IMG/VR virus record: IMGVR_UViG_3300027773_000004
Coordinates: 16,824-80,823 of that record
Source: a virus
DNA: 64,000 nt
Reading direction: 5' to 3' (one strand)
Shown in pieces: positions 16,781-52,300 of the stretch. The notes below the pieces were generated by a model. The model worked only from the letters and a program-made list of their open reading frames with translations, did not search any database and was not told the origin of the DNA. Position 1 is the stretch's first letter, and every line of letters begins with the position of its first letter. Both the position numbers and the translations under genes were made by a program.

Positions 16781-17227
16781 ATGGCGCAGCTTGGTGGCAT
16801 CAACCAGGTCAATACCGGCCGCGACGTATCGTTCAACATCGTCACCGACGCCGGGCTCCTCAGCCTCGACATCACGCAGTCGTTCCGGCGCCGCGGCCTC
16901 TACGACCATCGCGTGTCGCGGCCGATCAACGGGCCGCCGAAGTTCGTGCCGATCATCGCCGGCTGGGAACTCGACTTCGAACTCGACCGCCAGAACGCCG
17001 GCGTCGATACGTTCTTCGCCAACCTGGAATCGACCTACTACCAGGGCGGCGCGATCAACGCCGGCACGATCACCGAGACGATCATCGACGCCGACACTGG
17101 CGCGGTGCACGTTTTCCTGTTCAGCGGCCTCATGTTGACCTGCGAAGACATCGGCGACGTGAAGGCCGACGACATGATCAAGATGCGGGTCCAGGGCCGA
17201 GCATCGACCCGGACGCAGCTGTCGTAG
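16781..17227 (+). CDS. Tail tube protein
   Basis: 148 residues, the usual size for tube subunits. It follows the sheath gene and precedes the chaperone gene. Beta-rich segments (DVSFNIVTDAGLLSLDI, FVPIIAGWELDFELDRQN, AVHVFLFSGLMLTCEDIG, MIKMRVQGRAS) match tube proteins of contractile phages. Within the virion it would form the inner tube around the tape measure. Confidence 0.85.
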   Translation: MAQLGGINQVNTGRDVSFNIVTDAGLLSLDITQSFRRRGLYDHRVSRPINGPPKFVPIIAGWELDFELDRQNAGVDTFFANLESTYYQGGAINAGTITETIIDADTGAVHVFLFSGLMLTCEDIGDVKADDMIKMRVQGRASTRTQLS

Positions 17228-47659: not shown

Positions 47660-47778
47660 ATTTTCCGCATTCAGTACGGCGCGGCAAAAAGCCAGCGCCA
47701 CGACACAGCAGTCGCGGTGGAAGCTCCGGGGCAAAGAGCCGTCAAGCCGGCCGCAGCGATCTTCGTTTTGAAATTTCG

Positions 47779-47852
47779 GGGATGTCGTTCAACGGGAGGA
47801 CTTCTGCCCTGCAAGCAGAAAATGTCGGTTCGATTCCGACCATCTCCACCAT
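47779..47852 (+). tRNA. tRNA-Ala(TGC), C33
   Basis: Acceptor GGGGATG/CATCTCC contains the G3:U70 alanine identity pair. The anticodon loop is CCTGCAA, so position 33 is C, not U. T-loop TTCGATT, D-loop with GG, encoded CCA. First gene of the array. Confidence 0.9.
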
Positions 47853-47859
47853 CCTTTTG

Positions 47860-47935
47860 CGGCCATAGCTCAACGGCTGAGAGCGCGGCGTTGCCAATGC
47901 CGAGATGAGGTTTCGACCACCTCTGGCCGCTCCAA
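47860..47935 (+). tRNA. tRNA-Gly(GCC)
   Basis: Acceptor GCGGCCA/TGGCCGC, anticodon loop TTGCCAA, T-loop TTCGACC, discriminator T, encoded CCA. Canonical elbow. Confidence 0.93.
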
Positions 47936-47941
47936 TTCATC

Positions 47942-48037
47942 GGGCGTCGGCGCCAGCAGCGCGGGGCCGTTTTATAAACGGCCGAGACCTGCCAGATCAG
48001 CGGGGACGGCTCGGGGCGGCACCGAGGACGCCTACCA
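47942..48037 (+). tRNA. tRNA-like element with TAT anticodon and long variable region
   Basis: Acceptor GGGCGTC/GACGCCT plus ACCA and anticodon stem GCCGT/ACGGC around TTTATAA are intact. The T-stem CTCGG/CCGAG closes a GGCGGCA loop, the D-arm loop is only CAGCA, and there is an extra ~30-base variable region. The anticodon would read AUA (Ile), yet the form is class II. It may be an atypical tRNA or a mimic. Confidence 0.6.
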
Positions 48038-48045
48038 TTTCTTGA

Positions 48046-48117
48046 TGCGGTGAGGAACAGTTCCCGCGCGGTCTCATAAGCCGCGTCGCGCCGGTGCAAC
48101 TCCGGCCGCCGCAACCA
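48046..48117 (+). tRNA. tRNA-Met(CAT), shortened D-arm
   Basis: Acceptor TGCGGTG/CGCCGCA, anticodon loop CTCATAA, T-loop TGCAACT, encoded CCA. The D-arm is reduced to GGAA-CAG-TTCC. Initiator, elongator or AUA-reading Ile2 use cannot be told from sequence. Confidence 0.75.
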
Positions 48118-48119
48118 TC

Positions 48120-48195
48120 GCCGAGCTGGCAGTGCTAGTGCATGCGCCGGTCCGAAAAACCGGATATCGAGGTGCGATCCCTCGGCTCGGCACCA
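48120..48195 (+). tRNA. tRNA-Phe(GAA), C33, altered elbow
   Basis: Acceptor GCCGAGC/GCTCGGC, anticodon stem CCGGT/ACCGG with loop CCGAAAA (C33). T-loop TGCGATC with G55-C56; D-loop GTGCTAG lacks GG. Encoded CCA. Confidence 0.85.
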
Positions 48196-48204
48196 TCATT
48201 CAAC

Positions 48205-48280
48205 GCGGGTATCGTCCAAAGGCTAGGGCCTCACCCTTCCAAGGTGATGATGACCGGTTCGAGTCCGGCTACCCGCTCCA
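48205..48280 (+). tRNA. tRNA-Gly(TCC)
   Basis: Acceptor GCGGGTA/TACCCGC, anticodon loop CTTCCAA, T-loop TTCGAGT, discriminator T, encoded CCA. Canonical elbow. Confidence 0.92.
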
Positions 48281-48286
48281 GTTCAT

Positions 48287-48362
48287 TCCCATCGACCGAG
48301 CAAGCGAACGGCGCCGCCTGTTAAGCGGATGCAGCCAGGGGCGGTACCTGGGATGGGAGCCA
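48287..48362 (+). tRNA. tRNA-Asn(GTT), altered elbow
   Basis: Acceptor TCCCATC/GATGGGA, discriminator G, encoded CCA, anticodon loop CTGTTAA. T-loop GGCGGTA between CCAGG and CCTGG; D-loop AGCAAGCGAA has no GG. Confidence 0.85.
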
Positions 48363-48368
48363 TTTCAT

Positions 48369-48441
48369 ACGGGCGTGTTCTGGTGAACAACGCGGACTCC
48401 AAACCCGCGAAGGAGAGTTCGATTCTGCTCCGCCGGTGCCA
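48369..48441 (+). tRNA. tRNA-Trp(CCA)
   Basis: Anticodon loop CTCCAAA, T-loop TTCGATT, discriminator G, encoded CCA. Acceptor ACGGGCG/CGCCGGT has one G-G mismatch, and the T-stem has a bulge, so the fold is weaker than its neighbours. Confidence 0.75.
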
Positions 48442-48445
48442 ATTT

Positions 48446-48521
48446 GTTGCCGTGGCCGAACAGCGAGGCGCTCGCCTGCAAAGCGGGTCTTATGTCGGTG
48501 CAACTCCGACCGGCAACTCCA
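48446..48521 (+). tRNA. tRNA-Cys(GCA), altered elbow
   Basis: Acceptor GTTGCCG/CGGCAAC, anticodon loop CTGCAAA, T-loop TGCAACT, D-loop GAACAGCGA without GG, discriminator T, encoded CCA. Confidence 0.9.
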
Positions 48522-48531
48522 TTCGCATCGT

Positions 48532-48607
48532 GGCGGCGCTGGTGGACCAGCGGACACGTCCCCCTGTGGAGGGGAAGAAGCGGGGCCAGCACCCGCGCGC
48601 CGCCCCA
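48532..48607 (+). tRNA. tRNA-His(GTG) with G-1
   Basis: Acceptor GCGGCGC/GCGCCGC with C73 and an encoded G at position -1, the histidine identity features. Anticodon loop CTGTGGA. T-loop is the unusual GCCAGCA. Encoded CCA. Confidence 0.88.
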
Positions 48608-48608
48608 A

Positions 48609-48684
48609 GCCGCGCGTAGCTCAGCAGCAGAGCAATCGCCTTGTAAGCGATTGGCCCTCGGTGCAAGTCCGAGCCGCGGCACCA
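48609..48684 (+). tRNA. tRNA-Thr(TGT), altered elbow
   Basis: Anticodon stem ATCGC/GCGAT with loop CTTGTAA. D-stem GCTC/GAGC encloses AGCAGCA (no GG); T-loop TGCAAGT. Acceptor GCCGCGC/CCGCGGC has a mismatch at pair 7. Encoded CCA. Confidence 0.87.
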
Positions 48685-48685
48685 C

Positions 48686-48760
48686 GGCGAACTCGTTCAA
48701 CGGCAGGACGGCGCGCTCTGAACGCGCAAATCGTGGGTTCGACTCCCCGGTTCGCTTCCA
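48686..48760 (+). tRNA. tRNA-Gln(CTG)
   Basis: Acceptor GGCGAAC/GTTCGCT, anticodon loop CTCTGAA, T-loop TTCGACT, encoded CCA. It follows the previous tRNA after one base. Confidence 0.9.
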
Positions 48761-48769
48761 TTCACTCAT

Positions 48770-48841
48770 GGCCCGTGGCCCAGGAGGGTATCGCGGCCTT
48801 TGAAGCCGTGCGGCTCGGTTCGACCCCGAGGCGGGCTTCCA
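48770..48841 (+). tRNA. tRNA-Gln(TTG)
   Basis: Acceptor GGCCCGT/GCGGGCT, anticodon loop CTTTGAA, T-loop TTCGACC, encoded CCA. Confidence 0.9.
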
Positions 48842-48848
48842 AATCCAG

Positions 48849-48923
48849 CGCCCCGTCGTCTAGCGGTCTGGATACCCGGCCCTCATCCGGGAGGTAGGGG
48901 ATCAACACCCCTCGGGGCGACCA
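48849..48923 (+). tRNA. tRNA-Glu(CTC), C33
   Basis: Acceptor CGCCCCG/CGGGGCG, anticodon stem CCCGG/CCGGG with loop CCCTCAT, giving C33. T-loop ATCAACA. Encoded CCA. Confidence 0.87.
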
Positions 48924-48930
48924 CTTTCTC

Positions 48931-49013
48931 GCGGGCGTGGTGGAACAGCAGACACAGCGGGCTTAAACCCCGCCGCCGCAAGCGTGCAGGTGCAACTCCT
49001 GTCGCCCGCACCA
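48931..49013 (+). tRNA. tRNA-Leu(TAA), class II, altered elbow
   Basis: Acceptor GCGGGCG/CGCCCGC, anticodon loop CTTAAAC, long variable arm. D-loop GAACAGCAGA lacks GG; T-loop TGCAACT. Encoded CCA. Confidence 0.9.
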
Positions 49014-49020
49014 AGATCAA

Positions 49021-49098
49021 GCGCGCGTAGCCCAATCGGTAGGAGGCACGAGCCCGAGGCGCTCGGCAGTGCCGGTTCGAATCCGGCCGCGCGTACCA
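49021..49098 (+). tRNA. tRNA with GAG anticodon (Leu by code), class I, C33
   Basis: Acceptor GCGCGCG/CGCGCGT, anticodon stem CGAGC/GCTCG with loop CCGAGGC (C33, G37). The variable loop is short, unlike normal leucine tRNAs. T-loop TTCGAAT, encoded CCA. Confidence 0.75.
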
Positions 49099-49100
49099 GC

Positions 49101-49179
49101 GCCCCACTAGCCCAACTCCGGCAGAGGCGCCGCCCTCAGAAGGCGGAGGTTCGCGGTTCGAATCCGCGGTGGGGTACCA
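49101..49179 (+). tRNA. tRNA-Leu(CAG), class I form
   Basis: Acceptor GCCCCAC/GTGGGGT, anticodon loop CTCAGAA, T-loop TTCGAAT, encoded CCA. The variable loop is about 5 bases, and the D-arm (TAGCCCAA...GGC) matches the neighbours with GAG and CAA anticodons. Confidence 0.85.
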
Positions 49180-49185
49180 GTTTTG

Positions 49186-49272
49186 GGATGGTGAACCGGA
49201 GCGGCCTCCGGCGCCGCTTGGAAAGCGGTTGGCACCGCAAGGTGTTCGCGTCGGCAGCGACGCCATCCTCCA
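49186..49272 (+). tRNA. tRNA-Ser(GGA), class II
   Basis: Acceptor GGATGGT/GCCATCC, anticodon loop TTGGAAA, long variable arm, T-loop best read as GTCGGCA. Encoded CCA. D-loop AGCGGCCT keeps GG. Confidence 0.82.
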
Positions 49273-49274
49273 CT

Positions 49275-49362
49275 GGAGCGTGCTGGGGTTGGCTCCCCGC
49301 ACCGTTTTGAAAACGGCAGCGCCGCAACTGCGGCGATCGTTCGATGCGATCACGCTCCGCCA
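49275..49362 (+). tRNA. tRNA-Ser(TGA), class II
   Basis: Acceptor GGAGCGT/ACGCTCC, anticodon loop TTTGAAA, long variable arm, T-loop TTCGATG, discriminator G, encoded CCA. Confidence 0.92.
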
Positions 49363-49367
49363 ATCTT

Positions 49368-49455
49368 GGAGAGTGAAGTGGGCAGGCGCACCACCGCCCG
49401 TTCGAAGCGGGATGGGTCCTCACGGACTGGGTTTCGAGTACCTCGCTCTCCGCCA
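49368..49455 (+). tRNA. tRNA-Ser(CGA), class II
   Basis: Acceptor GGAGAGT/GCTCTCC, anticodon loop TTCGAAG, long variable arm, T-loop TTCGAGT, discriminator G, encoded CCA. Confidence 0.9.
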
Positions 49456-49525
49456 GCTCGTGCGTTGCGCCGGCTCGGCCACAAGGTCGTGTCGTGCGGC
49501 AAGCGATACACCAGGAAGGGACGAC
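49456..49525 (+). other. Unassigned 70-base spacer between tRNAs, possible tRNA relic
   Basis: This spacer is much longer than the usual 1-10 bases. It ends with ATACACCA and has short stems (GTCGT/GCGAT around GCGGCAA, resembling an altered T-arm) but no complete acceptor or anticodon arm. Confidence 0.3.
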
Positions 49526-49613
49526 GGAAGGTGCTGGGGTAGGCTCCCCCGAATGGTTTGCTAAACCATAGTGTCGCTCTGCGACAGAGGTTCGATGCCT
49601 CCACCTTCCTCCA
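49526..49613 (+). tRNA. tRNA-Ser(GCT), class II
   Basis: Acceptor GGAAGGT/ACCTTCC, anticodon stem ATGGT/ACCAT with loop TTGCTAA, long variable arm, T-loop TTCGATG, encoded CCA. Confidence 0.92.
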
Positions 49614-49616
49614 TCT

Positions 49617-49691
49617 GCTGACGTAGCACAGCGGCGGTGCATCCCCTTGGTAAGGGGAAGGTCAGTGGTTCAAGTCCACTCGTCAGCACCA
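49617..49691 (+). tRNA. tRNA-Thr(GGT)
   Basis: Acceptor GCTGACG/CGTCAGC, anticodon loop TTGGTAA, T-loop TTCAAGT, encoded CCA. Canonical elbow. Confidence 0.93.
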
Positions 49692-49697
49692 ATCATT

Positions 49698-49781
49698 GCG
49701 GAGGGAAAGCCGGCAGCTTCCGGCAGCGGGTCTGTAAAACCCGTCCTTCGGGGAGTGGGGCAGCACCACACCTCCGCACCA
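49698..49781 (+). tRNA. tRNA-Tyr(GTA), class II, altered elbow
   Basis: Acceptor GCGGAGG/CCTCCGC, anticodon stem CGGGT/ACCCG with loop CTGTAAA, long variable arm. T-loop GGCAGCA; the D-arm GCCGG-CAGCTT-CCGGC has no GG in its loop. Encoded CCA. Confidence 0.88.
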
Positions 49782-49788
49782 CCAAAAT

Positions 49789-49864
49789 GCTCCTGTAGTT
49801 CAACAGCCGAGAACGCGCGCCCGATAAGCGCGAGATGCCTGGGCAGCACAGGCCAGGAGTACCA
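49789..49864 (+). tRNA. tRNA-Ile(GAT), C33, altered elbow
   Basis: Acceptor GCTCCTG/CAGGAGT, anticodon stem CGCGC/GCGCG with loop CCGATAA (C33). D-stem GTTC/GAAC encloses AACAGCCGA; T-stem GCCTG/CAGGC encloses GGCAGCA. Encoded CCA. Confidence 0.88.
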
Positions 49865-49868
49865 GCTT

Positions 49869-49942
49869 GGGGTCGTAGCTCATCGGTCGAGCAGCCGGCT
49901 CTTAACCGGCAGGATGCGGTTCAACTCCGCACGGCCCTACCA
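49869..49942 (+). tRNA. tRNA-Lys(CTT)
   Basis: Acceptor GGGGTCG/CGGCCCT, anticodon loop CTCTTAA, T-loop TTCAACT, encoded CCA. Confidence 0.92.
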
Positions 49943-49946
49943 GAAC

Positions 49947-50008
49947 CGCCCGGTGACGATCGGGCGCGCCGCGCCGGCGCCATAGGTCCAAGAGCAGGCG
50001 CCCGCGGC
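49947..50008 (+). ncRNA. Structured non-tRNA RNA in the array upstream of rtcB
   Basis: Two strong hairpins fill the 76-base gap between tRNA-Lys and tRNA-Asp. CGCCCG (49947-49952) pairs with CGGGCG (49961-49966). GCCGCG-CC-GGCGCC (49968-49981) pairs with GGCGCC-CGCGGC (49997-50008) around a 15-base loop, ATAGGTCCAAGAGCA. No tRNA fold can be drawn. It may be a processing signal or a small RNA; function unknown. Confidence 0.45.
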
Positions 50009-50018
50009 ACCCTCAAGA

Positions 50019-50092
50019 GCTCGCATCGTTCAATGGCAGGACACGGCACTGTCGATGCCGGAACGGCGGTTCGATCCCGCCTGCGAGCGCCA
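50019..50092 (+). tRNA. tRNA-Asp(GTC)
   Basis: Acceptor GCTCGCA/TGCGAGC, discriminator G, anticodon loop CTGTCGA, T-loop TTCGATC, encoded CCA. Last tRNA before rtcB. Confidence 0.93.
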
Positions 50093-50118
50093 TATCAACT
50101 TCCCGAGGAGATAGGCCT

Positions 50119-51357
50119 GTGTCTTACGAGGTAATCGCGGACGCCGGGAAGCCGATCAAAATGTGGACGAAAGATGTCCCGGTCGAGCGCATGGCCATTG
50201 ATCAACTCCGCAACGTCGCGGGGCTGCCGTTCATTTACAAGCATGTCGCCGCGATGCCGGATGTGCATTGGGGGATGGGCGCGACGGTCGGCTCGGTTAT
50301 CGCGACGAAGGGCGCGATTATCCCGGCTGCGGTCGGGGTCGATATCGGTTGCGGCATGGTGGCGGCGCGGCTGTCGCTGACCGCCTCGGACTTGCCCGAC
50401 AACCTCGCGCCGATGCGTGCCGCGATCGAGGCGTCGGTGCCGCACGGCCGCACCGATAACGGCGGCATCAACGACCGCGGCGCGTGGGGCGAATTGCCGG
50501 CGAACGTGCTCTACATGATCGGCAAGCACGGCAACCAGTCGCTCGCCGCAAGGCTGGCTGCGATCGTCGAGAAGCATCCAAAACTTACGCGAGCCTCGGC
50601 GCGTGCTCCGCACCATCTCGGCACGCTCGGCACCGGCAACCACTTCATCGAGGTCTGCCTAGATGAGGAACAGCGCGTCTGGATCATGCTGCACTCGGGT
50701 TCGCGCGGCATCGGCAATGCCATCGGCAGCTTTTTCATCGACCGCGCCAAGGCCGACATGAAGCGCTGGTTCATTAACCTGCCGGACCAAGATTTGGCCT
50801 ATCTGCCGGAAGGCAGCGAAGCATTTGACGACTACATGCAAGCGGTGAGTTGGGCGCAGGATTTTGCGGTCGAGAACCGCCGCGTCATGCTCGATGCGAC
50901 TCTGCGCGCGGTTGTCGGCGCGCTCGGCAAGCCCGGAATCACGTGGAACGAAGAAGCGGTCAATTGCCATCACAACTACGTCGCCCGCGAAAACCATTTC
51001 GGCCAGAATGTGCTGCTCACACGCAAGGGCGCCGTGAGGGCGCGCGAGGGCGACCTCGGCATCATTCCCGGTTCGATGGGTGCGCGCTCTTACATCGTGC
51101 GCGGCAAGGGCAATCCCGACAGCTTCATGTCATGCTCGCACGGCGCTGGCCGGAAGATGAGCCGTTCTGAGGCCAAGAAGCTGTTCACGCTCGATGATCA
51201 CGTTCGTGCAACCGCCGGCGTCGAGTGTCGCAAGGATGAGGGCGTCATTGATGAGACGCCAATGGCGTACAAGGATATCGATACGGTGATGGCGGCACAG
51301 GCCGATCTGGTCGATATCGTGCACCAGCTTCGTCAAGTGTTGTGCGTAAAAGGATAA
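50119..51357 (+). CDS. rtcB: RNA-splicing ligase RtcB
   Basis: 412 residues, full length for RtcB. Key motifs are present: MPDVHWGMG (46-54), VGVDIGCGM with metal ligand Cys78, LGTGNHFIE with His175, LHSGSRG (191-197), NCHHNY (282-287) and SCSHGAGR with the GMP-accepting His341. RtcB joins 2',3'-cyclic phosphate ends to 5'-OH ends using GTP and Mn2+. The gene lies inside the tRNA array, 26 bases after tRNA-Asp and one base before tRNA-Pro, with GAGGAGA upstream. It is probably made from the same transcript and could repair cleaved tRNAs. No archease gene is visible here. Confidence 0.95.
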   Translation: MSYEVIADAGKPIKMWTKDVPVERMAIDQLRNVAGLPFIYKHVAAMPDVHWGMGATVGSVIATKGAIIPAAVGVDIGCGMVAARLSLTASDLPDNLAPMRAAIEASVPHGRTDNGGINDRGAWGELPANVLYMIGKHGNQSLAARLAAIVEKHPKLTRASARAPHHLGTLGTGNHFIEVCLDEEQRVWIMLHSGSRGIGNAIGSFFIDRAKADMKRWFINLPDQDLAYLPEGSEAFDDYMQAVSWAQDFAVENRRVMLDATLRAVVGALGKPGITWNEEAVNCHHNYVARENHFGQNVLLTRKGAVRAREGDLGIIPGSMGARSYIVRGKGNPDSFMSCSHGAGRKMSRSEAKKLFTLDDHVRATAGVECRKDEGVIDETPMAYKDIDTVMAAQADLVDIVHQLRQVLCVKG

Positions 51358-51358
51358 G

Positions 51359-51434
51359 CCGGGAGTAGGTCAGCGGCTAGACCGCCTCGTTTGGAGCGAG
51401 GATATCGGGGGTTCGAGTCCCTCCTTCCGGACCA
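51359..51434 (+). tRNA. tRNA-Pro(TGG)
   Basis: Acceptor CCGGGAG/CTTCCGG, anticodon loop TTTGGAG, T-loop TTCGAGT, encoded CCA. It begins one base after the rtcB stop codon. Confidence 0.92.
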
Positions 51435-51440
51435 TTTCCG

Positions 51441-51512
51441 GCCGACAGCGACGGATCGCGCCCGCCTCTCCTAAAGGCAGGAGCCTCGGTTCGATTCCGA
51501 GTGTCGGCGCCA
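51441..51512 (+). tRNA. tRNA-Arg(CCT)
   Basis: Acceptor GCCGACA/TGTCGGC, discriminator G, anticodon loop CTCCTAA, T-loop TTCGATT, encoded CCA. D-arm is short (GCGA-CGGA-TCGC). Confidence 0.87.
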
Positions 51513-51590
51513 CGGGGCGTAGCTTAGCCTGGCCAAAGTGCCTGCTTCGGAAGCAGGAGACCGGCGGTTCAAATCCGCCCGCCCCGACCA
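51513..51590 (+). tRNA. tRNA-Pro(CGG)
   Basis: Acceptor CGGGGCG/CGCCCCG, anticodon loop TTCGGAA, T-loop TTCAAAT, encoded CCA. It directly abuts the CCA of the preceding tRNA with no spacer. Confidence 0.92.
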
Positions 51591-51595
51591 TCATC

Positions 51596-51668
51596 GCCCG
51601 GTTAGCTCAGCAGCAGAGCGGCGGTCCTACACACCGCGTCAGCAGGGGTGCGAATCCTCTACCGGGTA
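51596..51668 (+). tRNA. tRNA-Val(TAC), C33, altered elbow
   Basis: Acceptor GCCCGGT/ACCGGGT, anticodon stem GCGGT/ACCGC with loop CCTACAC (C33). D-loop AGCAGCA lacks GG; T-loop TGCGAAT. The discriminator A is followed by CA, not CCA, because the next gene starts at 51670. Confidence 0.87.
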
Positions 51669-51669
51669 C

Positions 51670-51744
51670 AGGCCCGTCGCATAGAAGGTTGTGCGCCGCC
51701 TCGACACGGCGGAGGTGCCGGAGCGTTACCGGCCGGGCCTACCA
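51670..51744 (+). tRNA. tRNA-Val(GAC), C33
   Basis: Acceptor AGGCCCG/CGGGCCT, anticodon stem CCGCC/GGCGG with loop TCGACAC (C33). T-loop AGCGTTA; D-loop AGAAGGTT keeps GG. Encoded CCA. Confidence 0.85.
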
Positions 51745-51745
51745 T

Positions 51746-51819
51746 CGCGCGGTCGTCTAAGGCAGGACACCTGTCCTTCAAACAGGGAAACGCGGGTTCA
51801 AATCCCGTCTGCGCGGCCA
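51746..51819 (+). tRNA. tRNA-Glu(TTC), C33
   Basis: Acceptor CGCGCGG/CTGCGCG, discriminator G, anticodon stem CCTGT/ACAGG with loop CCTTCAA (C33). T-loop TTCAAAT, encoded CCA. Confidence 0.9.
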
Positions 51820-51828
51820 ATTCCTTTC

Positions 51829-51900
51829 GCCTCGCCCAGCGGATCTGGGGCCTGGGCTACGAACCCGGGACGCGGGGTTCGACTCCTCGGCGGGGCGCCA
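51829..51900 (+). tRNA. tRNA-Arg(ACG)
   Basis: Acceptor GCCTCGC/GCGGGGC, discriminator G, anticodon loop CTACGAA, T-loop TTCGACT, encoded CCA. A34 would need deamination to inosine by host TadA. Confidence 0.88.
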
Positions 51901-51907
51901 ACCTCAC

Positions 51908-51979
51908 GGGCCTGTAGCACAATGGACAGTGCAGCCGGCTTCTACCCGGCGGATCGGGGTTCGATTCCTCGCAGGCTCG
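51908..51979 (+). tRNA. tRNA-Arg(TCT)
   Basis: Acceptor GGGCCTG/CAGGCTC, discriminator G, anticodon loop CTTCTAC, T-loop TTCGATT. The following bases are TCA rather than CCA, so the tail must be added after processing. Confidence 0.9.
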
Positions 51980-51986
51980 TCATCAC

Positions 51987-52062
51987 GCGCTCGCAGCACG
52001 ATGGACCGTGCACCCGGCTCCGAACCGGGAGATTGTGAGTTCGATCCTCACCGGGCGCCCCA
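51987..52062 (+). tRNA. tRNA-Arg(CCG)
   Basis: Acceptor GCGCTCG/CGGGCGC, anticodon loop CTCCGAA, T-loop TTCGATC, encoded CCA. Discriminator is C. Confidence 0.9.
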
Positions 52063-52066
52063 TCCC

Positions 52067-52143
52067 GCGCGACTAGCCCAACTGGCAGAGGCACCGGCTT
52101 CAAATTCCGGATGTTCCGAGTTCGAGTTTCGGGTCGCGCACCA
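52067..52143 (+). tRNA. tRNA-Leu(CAA), class I form
   Basis: Acceptor GCGCGAC/GTCGCGC, anticodon loop TTCAAAT with a C-T mismatch closing the stem, T-loop TTCGAGT, encoded CCA. The variable loop is short; the D-arm resembles the tRNAs at 49021 and 49101. Confidence 0.82.
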
Positions 52144-52147
52144 CTCC

Positions 52148-52221
52148 GCGGGTATAGCTGGAAGGACAAGCTACGGCCTTTTAAGCCGTTGACGAGGGTT
52201 CGATTCCCTCTGCCCGCACCA
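52148..52221 (+). tRNA. tRNA-Lys(TTT)
   Basis: Acceptor GCGGGTA/TGCCCGC, anticodon stem ACGGC/GCCGT with loop CTTTTAA, T-loop TTCGATT, encoded CCA. Confidence 0.93.
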
Positions 52222-52226
52222 GATAT

Positions 52227-52300
52227 GCTGGCGTAGCACAAGGGCAGTGCAGCGCACTCGTAATGCGCCGATGTCGGTTCGATCCCGACCGTCAGCTCCA
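52227..52300 (+). tRNA. tRNA-Thr(CGT)
   Basis: Acceptor GCTGGCG/CGTCAGC, anticodon loop CTCGTAA, T-loop TTCGATC, discriminator T, encoded CCA. Last gene of the array. Confidence 0.92.

Follow-up and report, generated by a model that had tools for sequence, protein, structure and literature searches.

A transfer RNA (tRNA) array carried by a virus contains, beside ordinary tRNA genes, a set of genes whose D- and T-loops have changed together, and about a third of its tRNAs probably close the elbow by a second, interchangeable pair, A18-G55, which would not depend on TruB, the enzyme that makes pseudouridine 55 (psi55). The array occupies positions 47778-52300 of a stretch of 64,000 nucleotides (the window; positions 16,824 to 80,823 of the IMG/VR virus record IMGVR_UViG_3300027773_000004, 80,823 bases), and 38 tRNA-like elements were counted in it.

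Twelve of these elements lack U55 (11 have G55 and one C55) and have a D-loop that can be read as A18-G19, while GG is kept in all 26 elements with U55 (Fisher test, p = 3.7e-10, or 1e-8 if Val(GAC) is counted as an exception, for a 12/26 split that was set by hand). In all 12 variants G19 can be read opposite C56, and the combination of G18 with U55 fails, Val(GAC) being ambiguous at position 18. One tertiary pair is exchanged rather than two: G18 is replaced by A18 together with the replacement of U55 by G55, and G19 and C56 are unchanged. The array includes a minimal pair, Thr(GGT) with AGCGGCG and TTCAAGT against Thr(TGT) with AGCAGCA and TGCAAGT, and D-loops of equal length can also be compared in Gly(GCC) (AACGGCTGA) and Ile(GAT) (AACAGCCGA).

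The original prediction, which was made from the window alone, had named nine elements with G55-C56 and without a clear G18-G19 (Phe, Asn, Cys, Thr(TGT), Leu(TAA), Tyr, Ile(GAT), Val(TAC) and an element with anticodon TAT), and had stated that tRNAs with a normal T-loop keep GG in the D-loop; all nine are present, and the second statement is true for the 26 U55 elements. Its list missed His(GTG) at 48533, with C55 and a D-loop that likewise contains CAGC. The loss of GG that it described is correct for G18, which has become A18, but G19 is retained. Of its two exceptions, Met (D-loop CAG, T-loop TGCAACT) in fact obeys the rule, and Val(GAC), said to keep GG, is ambiguous, as AGAAGGTT can be read as A18-G19-G20 or as G18-G19.

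Covariation of positions 18 and 55 in viral tRNAs

The co-ordinated change of the two loops over unrelated isotypes, as originally proposed, is seen in the window and in many unrelated viral arrays. Viral tRNAs were collected by pattern scans, which returned at least 119, at least 120 and at least 119 stretches; every pattern, here and in the scan of cellular genomes below, required a GCTC/GAGC D-stem, and all counts from the scans are those of samples. Three loci of a single contig (L009, L089 and L169) were left out because L009 is identical to the window over 11 kb. With the window included, the pool comprised 1969 unique tRNAs from 274 loci, and strict counts were made on the 610 with a 7-base D-loop (186 loci).

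Among these 610 tRNAs, positions 18/55 are G/U in 395, A/G in 191, G/C in 12, G/G in 4, U/U in 3, C/G and A/C in 2 each and U/A in 1; A/U is never found, against 126 expected. Positions 18 and 55 share 0.856 bits of mutual information, compared with 0.225 for the runner-up of the 49 pairs of D-loop and T-loop positions and with a largest value of 0.058 over 1000 shuffles within isotypes. When the tRNAs were grouped at 70% identity outside the loops, A/G occurred in 120 of the 334 clusters, G/U in 245, both in 43 and A/U in none. Over the viral tRNAs, 18/55 is exchanged as a unit in 30 anticodons.

The tabulation of 18-19 against 55-56 that had been suggested as a check revealed a strong association, whichever site was used for selection. 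The scan selected for a TGCRA T-loop, with the D-loop left free, returned at least 119 viral contig stretches; these loci, together with the array L320 described below, gave 223 unique tRNAs with a 7-base D-loop, in which 18-19/55-56 was GG/TC in 113, AG/GC in 88, GG/CC in 7, GA/TT in 5, GT/TA in 2 and one of eight others in single tRNAs. Neither AG/TC nor GG/GC was present among these 223, which come from the matches listed. Conversely, the scan selected for AG in the D-loop, of which 62 of the 119 stretches were used (L442-L503), yielded 259 tRNAs from new loci, with GG/TC in 152, AG/GC in 90, AG/CC in 2, AG/GT in 1 and, among the matches listed, no AG/TC. A third sample was selected at neither site and contained AG/GC in 9 and GG/TC in 105 of 126 seven-base tRNAs. 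Over all loop lengths, G55C56 was found there in 29 of 577 unique tRNAs (576 under another key) and in 12 of 115 loci. Because this sample was restricted to loci new to the collection (L326-L441, 116 of 120), the variant-bearing L201-L203 fell out, and 29/577 is therefore slightly low. When D-loops of every length in the pool are counted, 408 of 415 G55C56 tRNAs contain AG and 1443 of 1463 U55C56 tRNAs contain GG.

Some observations weigh against a strict rule. Thirteen of the 1463 U55C56 tRNAs have AG without GG, 7 of the 415 G55C56 tRNAs lack AG, and L320, an array reached through protein similarity, holds 28 scanned tRNAs and no G55C56.

The outer pair compensates as well: 19-56 is G-C in 577 of the 610, A-U in 12, U-A in 6 and C-G in 2, with 13 other combinations. 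Compensated 19-56 pairs (A-U, U-A, C-G) were noted in L220, L271, L299, L320, L325, L485 and others, some of them alongside A18/G55; in L320, Val(TAC) has A18-U19 with G55-A56 and Lys(CTT) has G18-C19 with U55-G56. T-loop positions 54 and 58 covary with each other, separately from 18/55. In the T-loops GGCRGYA, AGCGTTA and CGCAATA, position 60 covaries with them, G-G and A-U occurring mostly with A60 and U-A with a pyrimidine at 60. The share of variants differs from array to array (30/33 in L248, 24/26 in L281, 18/19 in L218 and 10/33 in the window as scanned).

This variety would be expected if dispensable phage tRNAs drifted neutrally, the elbow pair wandering among similarly stable solutions with TruB irrelevant. 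Many solutions are indeed seen, including G/C at 18/55 in 12 of 610 and the A-U, U-A and C-G pairs at 19-56, and of the 158 loci with G55C56, 117 contain U55C56 tRNAs too. However, a single alternative dominates (191 A/G against 12 G/C and 12 of all remaining kinds), and an association with TruB exists in two bacterial groups (see below). We regard such drift as less likely than not.

The original prediction had also considered that the genes might be unexpressed decayed copies, and had placed a GC-GC pairing at the elbow. As to the first, the variants of the window have cloverleafs in which the stems and the anticodon loop are intact and CCA, or a site for it, is present, and judged from such features the variant genes look intact. 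Decay might be suspected from the odd arms of Met and the TAT element and from the slightly higher number of stem mismatches in viral variants (0.383 per 17 pairs, vs 0.305 in canonical tRNAs), but A/U at 18/55 would not then be expected to be missing, CCA is commoner in variants (96.6%) than in canonical tRNAs (91.1%), and the same elbow appears to be used by SAR11 cells; we consider decayed or non-functional copies very unlikely. As to the second, pairing of D-loop G19-C20 with T-loop C56-G55 would agree with the AGC read in most variants of this GC-rich window. Base 20 should then be conserved as C to pair with G55, but in the 188 AG/GC tRNAs it is T in 106, C in 46, A in 30 and G in 6, and in 371 canonical tRNAs T in 234, C in 89, A in 27 and G in 21. 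The GC-GC pairing is therefore not supported, and we think it most improbable.

The array, its detection and related loci

The elements (Table 1) were located by a cloverleaf scan that ignores positions 14-21 and 54-60 in scoring, with a cut-off of a score of at least 48 plus at least two letters of CCA. At this cut-off neither the first 47 kb of the window nor the reverse strand gave a match; the respective numbers were 0 and 1 at a cut-off of 44, and 1 and 4 at 40. The nine elements named originally scored 54-64. Val(TAC), whose 3' end reads CAG instead of CCA, entered under a looser CCA setting and is also found by ARAGORN and Rfam; the following tRNA starts before its full CCA. Ser(CGA) was added at a score of 45.5, Trp was identified by eye, and six of the 38 elements were segmented by hand. 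For Trp, Gln(CTG) and Arg(CCT) the computed frames were off, and TTC T-loops and GG in the D-arm are legible in the printed sequence.

ARAGORN counted 29 tRNAs in the array and missed 6 of the 12 variants vs 3 of the 26 remaining elements, so tRNA finders can overlook A18-G55 genes. The RF00005 listing includes Cys, Thr(TGT), Leu(TAA) and Val(TAC). Under loose filters Phe and Val(GAC), too, score above 29 bits, and the TAT element, Asn, His, Tyr, Ile and Met are not listed as RF00005.

Table 1. Selected elements of the tRNA array (window coordinates), with their loops and the means of detection
Element	Position	Strand	D-loop	T-loop	Found by
tRNA-like, anticodon TAT, long variable region	47942..48037	+	CAGCA/CAGCAGC	GGCGGCA	scan
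tRNA-Met(CAT)	48046..48117	+	CAG (3 bases)	TGCAACT	ARAGORN, segmentation
tRNA-Phe(GAA)	48120..48195	+	GTGCTAGTGCA	TGCGATC	scan, loose Rfam
tRNA-Asn(GTT)	48287..48362	+	AGCAAGCGAA	GGCGGTA	scan
tRNA-Cys(GCA)	48446..48521	+	GAACAGCGA	TGCAACT	ARAGORN, Rfam, scan
tRNA-His(GTG)	48533..48607	+	GACCAGCGGA	GCCAGCA (C55)	scan
tRNA-Thr(TGT)	48609..48684	+	AGCAGCA	TGCAAGT	ARAGORN, Rfam, scan
tRNA-Leu(TAA)	48931..49013	+	GAACAGCAGA	TGCAACT	ARAGORN, Rfam, scan
tRNA-Ser(GGA)	49186..49272	+	with GG	GTCGGCA (G54, U55, G58, A60)	scan
tRNA-Thr(GGT), canonical	49617..49691	+	AGCGGCG	TTCAAGT	ARAGORN, Rfam, scan
tRNA-Tyr(GTA)	49698..49781	+	D-arm GCCGG-CAGCTT-CCGGC	GGCAGCA	scan
tRNA-Ile(GAT)	49789..49864	+	AACAGCCGA	GGCAGCA	scan
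RtcB RNA ligase gene, within array	50119..51357	+			PF01139 (E 1.1e-131); phrog_1075
tRNA-Val(TAC)	51596..51668	+	AGCAGCA	TGCGAAT	ARAGORN, Rfam, scan
tRNA-Val(GAC)	51670..51744	+	AGAAGGTT (ambiguous)	AGCGTTA	ARAGORN, loose Rfam, scan

Several elements have further peculiarities. In the TAT element, predicted to read ATA codons, the variable region is 27 bases long, unusual for a tRNA-Ile; Met combines a four-pair D-arm and 3-base D-loop with an extended anticodon stem; and the D-loop of Trp (about 48363-48440), read by eye, seemingly has 4 bases. In Ser(GGA), positions 54 and 58 are altered while 18/55 stays canonical. C33 replaces the usual U in eight elements, i.e. Ala(TGC), Phe, Glu(CTC), Glu(TTC), Leu(GAG), Ile(GAT), Val(TAC) and Val(GAC); in the viral pool T33 is present in 92.3% of G55C56 tRNAs vs 95.6% of U55C56 tRNAs.

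PHROGs recognized phage structural genes in the window (major head protein, tail sheath, baseplate wedge, terminase and portal); neither PHROGs (20 open reading frames, ORFs) nor Pfam (10 ORFs) named any tRNA-modifying enzyme other than RtcB. The ORF at 42054-42680 matches class I chitinase (glycoside hydrolase 19) and is possibly a lysin.

Relatives of RtcB were tried as a route to homologous arrays: 79 loci besides L009 gave 77 tRNAs in 26 loci, none of them G55C56, and other viral RtcB loci seldom hold tRNA arrays. Relatives of the terminase (80 loci) and of a ParB-like protein (2 loci) gave 7 scan matches besides the two loci of the identical contig; the matches without U55 (L117, L118 and L128) look like chance GC-rich cloverleafs. 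A search with RF00005 over 38 whole virus records gave matches in 8, with arrays only in the identical contig (G001) and in G035, which contains L320.

Cultured phages were found by similarity, and the scan was limited to the stretches around the matches. In Caulobacter phage BL57, Agrobacterium phage Atu_ph07, Phaeobacter phage MD18 and phage DSS3_MAL1, 81 of 81 scanned tRNAs are U55C56. In Erythrobacter phage vB_EliS-L02 this is true of 24 of 26, the other two being Val(GAC) with A18/G55 and Cys with A18-U19 and G55-A56, so that a laboratory test is possible.

TruB and the elbow of cellular tRNA-Phe

The variant elbow is also found in cellular genomes. A scan of bacterial and archaeal genomes returned at least 119 stretches, and the matches listed were mainly tRNA-Phe of Pelagibacteraceae, with D-loop AGTAGTA or AGGAGTA and T-loop TGCGATT or TGCGAAT, together with contigs of Patescibacteria, Omnitrophota, Chloroflexi and Verrucomicrobiota, some with arrays, and a few GG/TGC mismatches. 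Four variant-rich tRNA arrays (L516, L528, L567 and L575) lie on contigs assigned to Verrucomicrobiota bins, which may have taken in phage contigs. A Phe pattern unconstrained at 16-20 and 54-55 was applied to 58 Pelagibacterales genomes and gave exactly one match in 55, of which 14 were AG with TGC, 41 GG with TTC and none mixed; this suggests, indirectly, that SAR11 bacteria use the variant tRNA-Phe in translation. By the same pattern the variant is rare elsewhere: it occurs in 3 of 240 genomes of the class, all three also included in the Pelagibacterales draw, while the phylum of a Nomurabacteria genome has it in 8 of 192 and that of a Verrucomicrobiaceae genome in 4 of 194.

TruB, the psi55 synthase, was called by TIGR00431. 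It is present in 31 of the 58 Pelagibacterales genomes, in 0 of 14 with A18-G55 tRNA-Phe vs 29 of 41 with G18-U55 (p 2e-6). In a draw of 257 SAR11 genomes, of which the comparison took in 162 of 215 matching genomes (those with Phe listed), TruB was found in 0 of 83 with the variant vs 42 of 79 with the canonical tRNA-Phe. Among 192 Patescibacteria, the numbers were 0 of 7 with A18-G55 vs 125 of 185 others (p 5e-4); nor was TruB found in two further variant genomes, G043 and G050. In the counts, G459, with G18, G55 and TruB, was entered as non-variant. We infer from this co-occurrence that the A18-G55 elbow can dispense with TruB; it is over-represented among genomes in which no TruB was found.

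A number of points weigh against a strict link with the absence of TruB. The p values ignore kinship and some of the genomes are incomplete. The variant is not confined to genomes without TruB, which accompanies variant Phe in G045 (Omnitrophota) and G049 (Chloroflexi), variant His in G051 (SAR11), and the variants of 4 of 4 variant-bearing Verrucomicrobiota, for one of which the tRNA surroundings were examined. In addition, no TruB was found in 37 of the 79 SAR11 genomes with canonical Phe, and in 80 SAR11-type loci the His tRNA has U55 in 40 and G55 in 13; loss of TruB therefore does not force the switch. The link with TruB is thus indirectly supported in SAR11 and Patescibacteria, with exceptions.

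The demand on phage tRNAs to serve as substrates for TruB and TrmH of the host may be weaker, and an elbow whose folding requires no host modification would be at least neutral and may help. That phages carry A18-G55 for this reason is the weakest step of our argument, and we rate it close to, but short of, an even chance. A wider proposal is more tentative, and we hold it to be somewhat doubtful: the tRNA elbow would have two codes that can replace each other, G18-psi55 and A18-G55; after losing TruB, cells could switch essential tRNAs to the second; and phage tRNA sets written partly or almost wholly in it could fold, mature and function without host elbow modification, serving hosts that lack TruB or being independent of TruB in hosts that have it.

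Escape from a host nuclease or another factor reading the elbow, also envisaged in the original prediction, would accord with the RtcB ligase inside the array and with a report, in its accessible text, that anticodon-loop changes in phage tRNAs should evade tRNA nucleases (PMC10264068). It is not favoured, because the exposed outer pair 19-56 is kept (G-C in 577/610) or compensated. Moreover, the same elbow occurs in cellular tRNA-Phe, and the 79 other RtcB loci contain no G55C56 tRNA, although no search aimed at elbow-reading defences was made. We consider this escape unlikely.

The probable fold of the second elbow and its relation to known systems

Normally base 18 is inserted between bases 57 and 58 of the elbow, in contact with psi55, and a pair is formed by 19 and 56 (PMC4810234, PMC7912444). 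In UGNRA loops, according to the accessible part of PMC2258182, an A from outside the loop commonly joins the G to give a composite GNRA loop, and U54-G55-N56-R57-A58 plus A18 fits this arrangement. All 188 AG/GC tRNAs have a purine at 57. This precedent suggests the following geometry. The inner pair G18-U55 (normally psi55) would be replaced jointly by A18-G55, with the outer G19-C56 retained; G55-C56-R57, closed by 54/58 (U-A, G-G, A-U or C-A), would form a lone-pair triloop that receives the inserted A18; and the G55-A18 contact in the resulting composite GNRA-like turn would take the place of G18-psi55. It should be noted, against this model, that U54 is present in only 88 and A58 in 93 of the 188 seven-base AG/GC tRNAs, and that about half of the variants depart from the UGNRA letters, with G-G, A-U or C-A as the other 54/58 pairs.

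As they have neither U55 nor G18, the variants cannot carry psi55 or 2'-O-methylguanosine 18 (Gm18), and 5-methyluridine 54 is impossible in those in which 54 is not U. Psi55 is termed universally conserved in the accessible part of a review of the elbow (PMC4810234). A natural exchange at 18/55 makes the role of psi55 and of TruB testable through natural variants, and suggests a rule by which tRNAs independent of elbow modification could be designed. No description of natural A18-G55 tRNAs was found in the open-access literature searched, which leaves priority unproven, and the accessible parts of PMC12482277, PMC13015707, PMC11555353 and PMC12851939 contain no matches to the terms T-loop, D-loop or elbow.

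The staphylococcal cell-wall tRNA-Gly has U-G-C in the T-loop and no GG, with UU at 18-19, and acts outside protein synthesis. Other unusual tertiary pairs, A54/A58 and R15/A48, are known in eukaryotic tRNA-Ala (PMC7566577, accessible part). The phage array tRNAs of PMC10264068 are, like ours, altered at conserved bases and unlike host tRNAs, but the changes are in the anticodon loop, and T-loop, D-loop and elbow are unmentioned in the accessible text. tRNA-Pyl and metazoan mitochondrial tRNAs share the loss of the GG and T-psi-C motifs (PMC7609411, accessible part), but they lack the elbow pairs or alter the fold, whereas here the change is compensated within a standard fold. The UGNRA lone-pair triloop of riboswitches and other RNAs has the same U-G-N-R-A sequence and an outside A joining the G (PMC2258182), but here it would stand in a tRNA elbow, with N56 paired with G19 and about half of the cases having another 54/58 pair. 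With the canonical elbow (PMC4810234, PMC7912444), finally, the variants share the cloverleaf, G19-C56, purine 57 and a base 18 facing base 55; they differ in that 18/55 is A/G, which rules out psi55 and Gm18.

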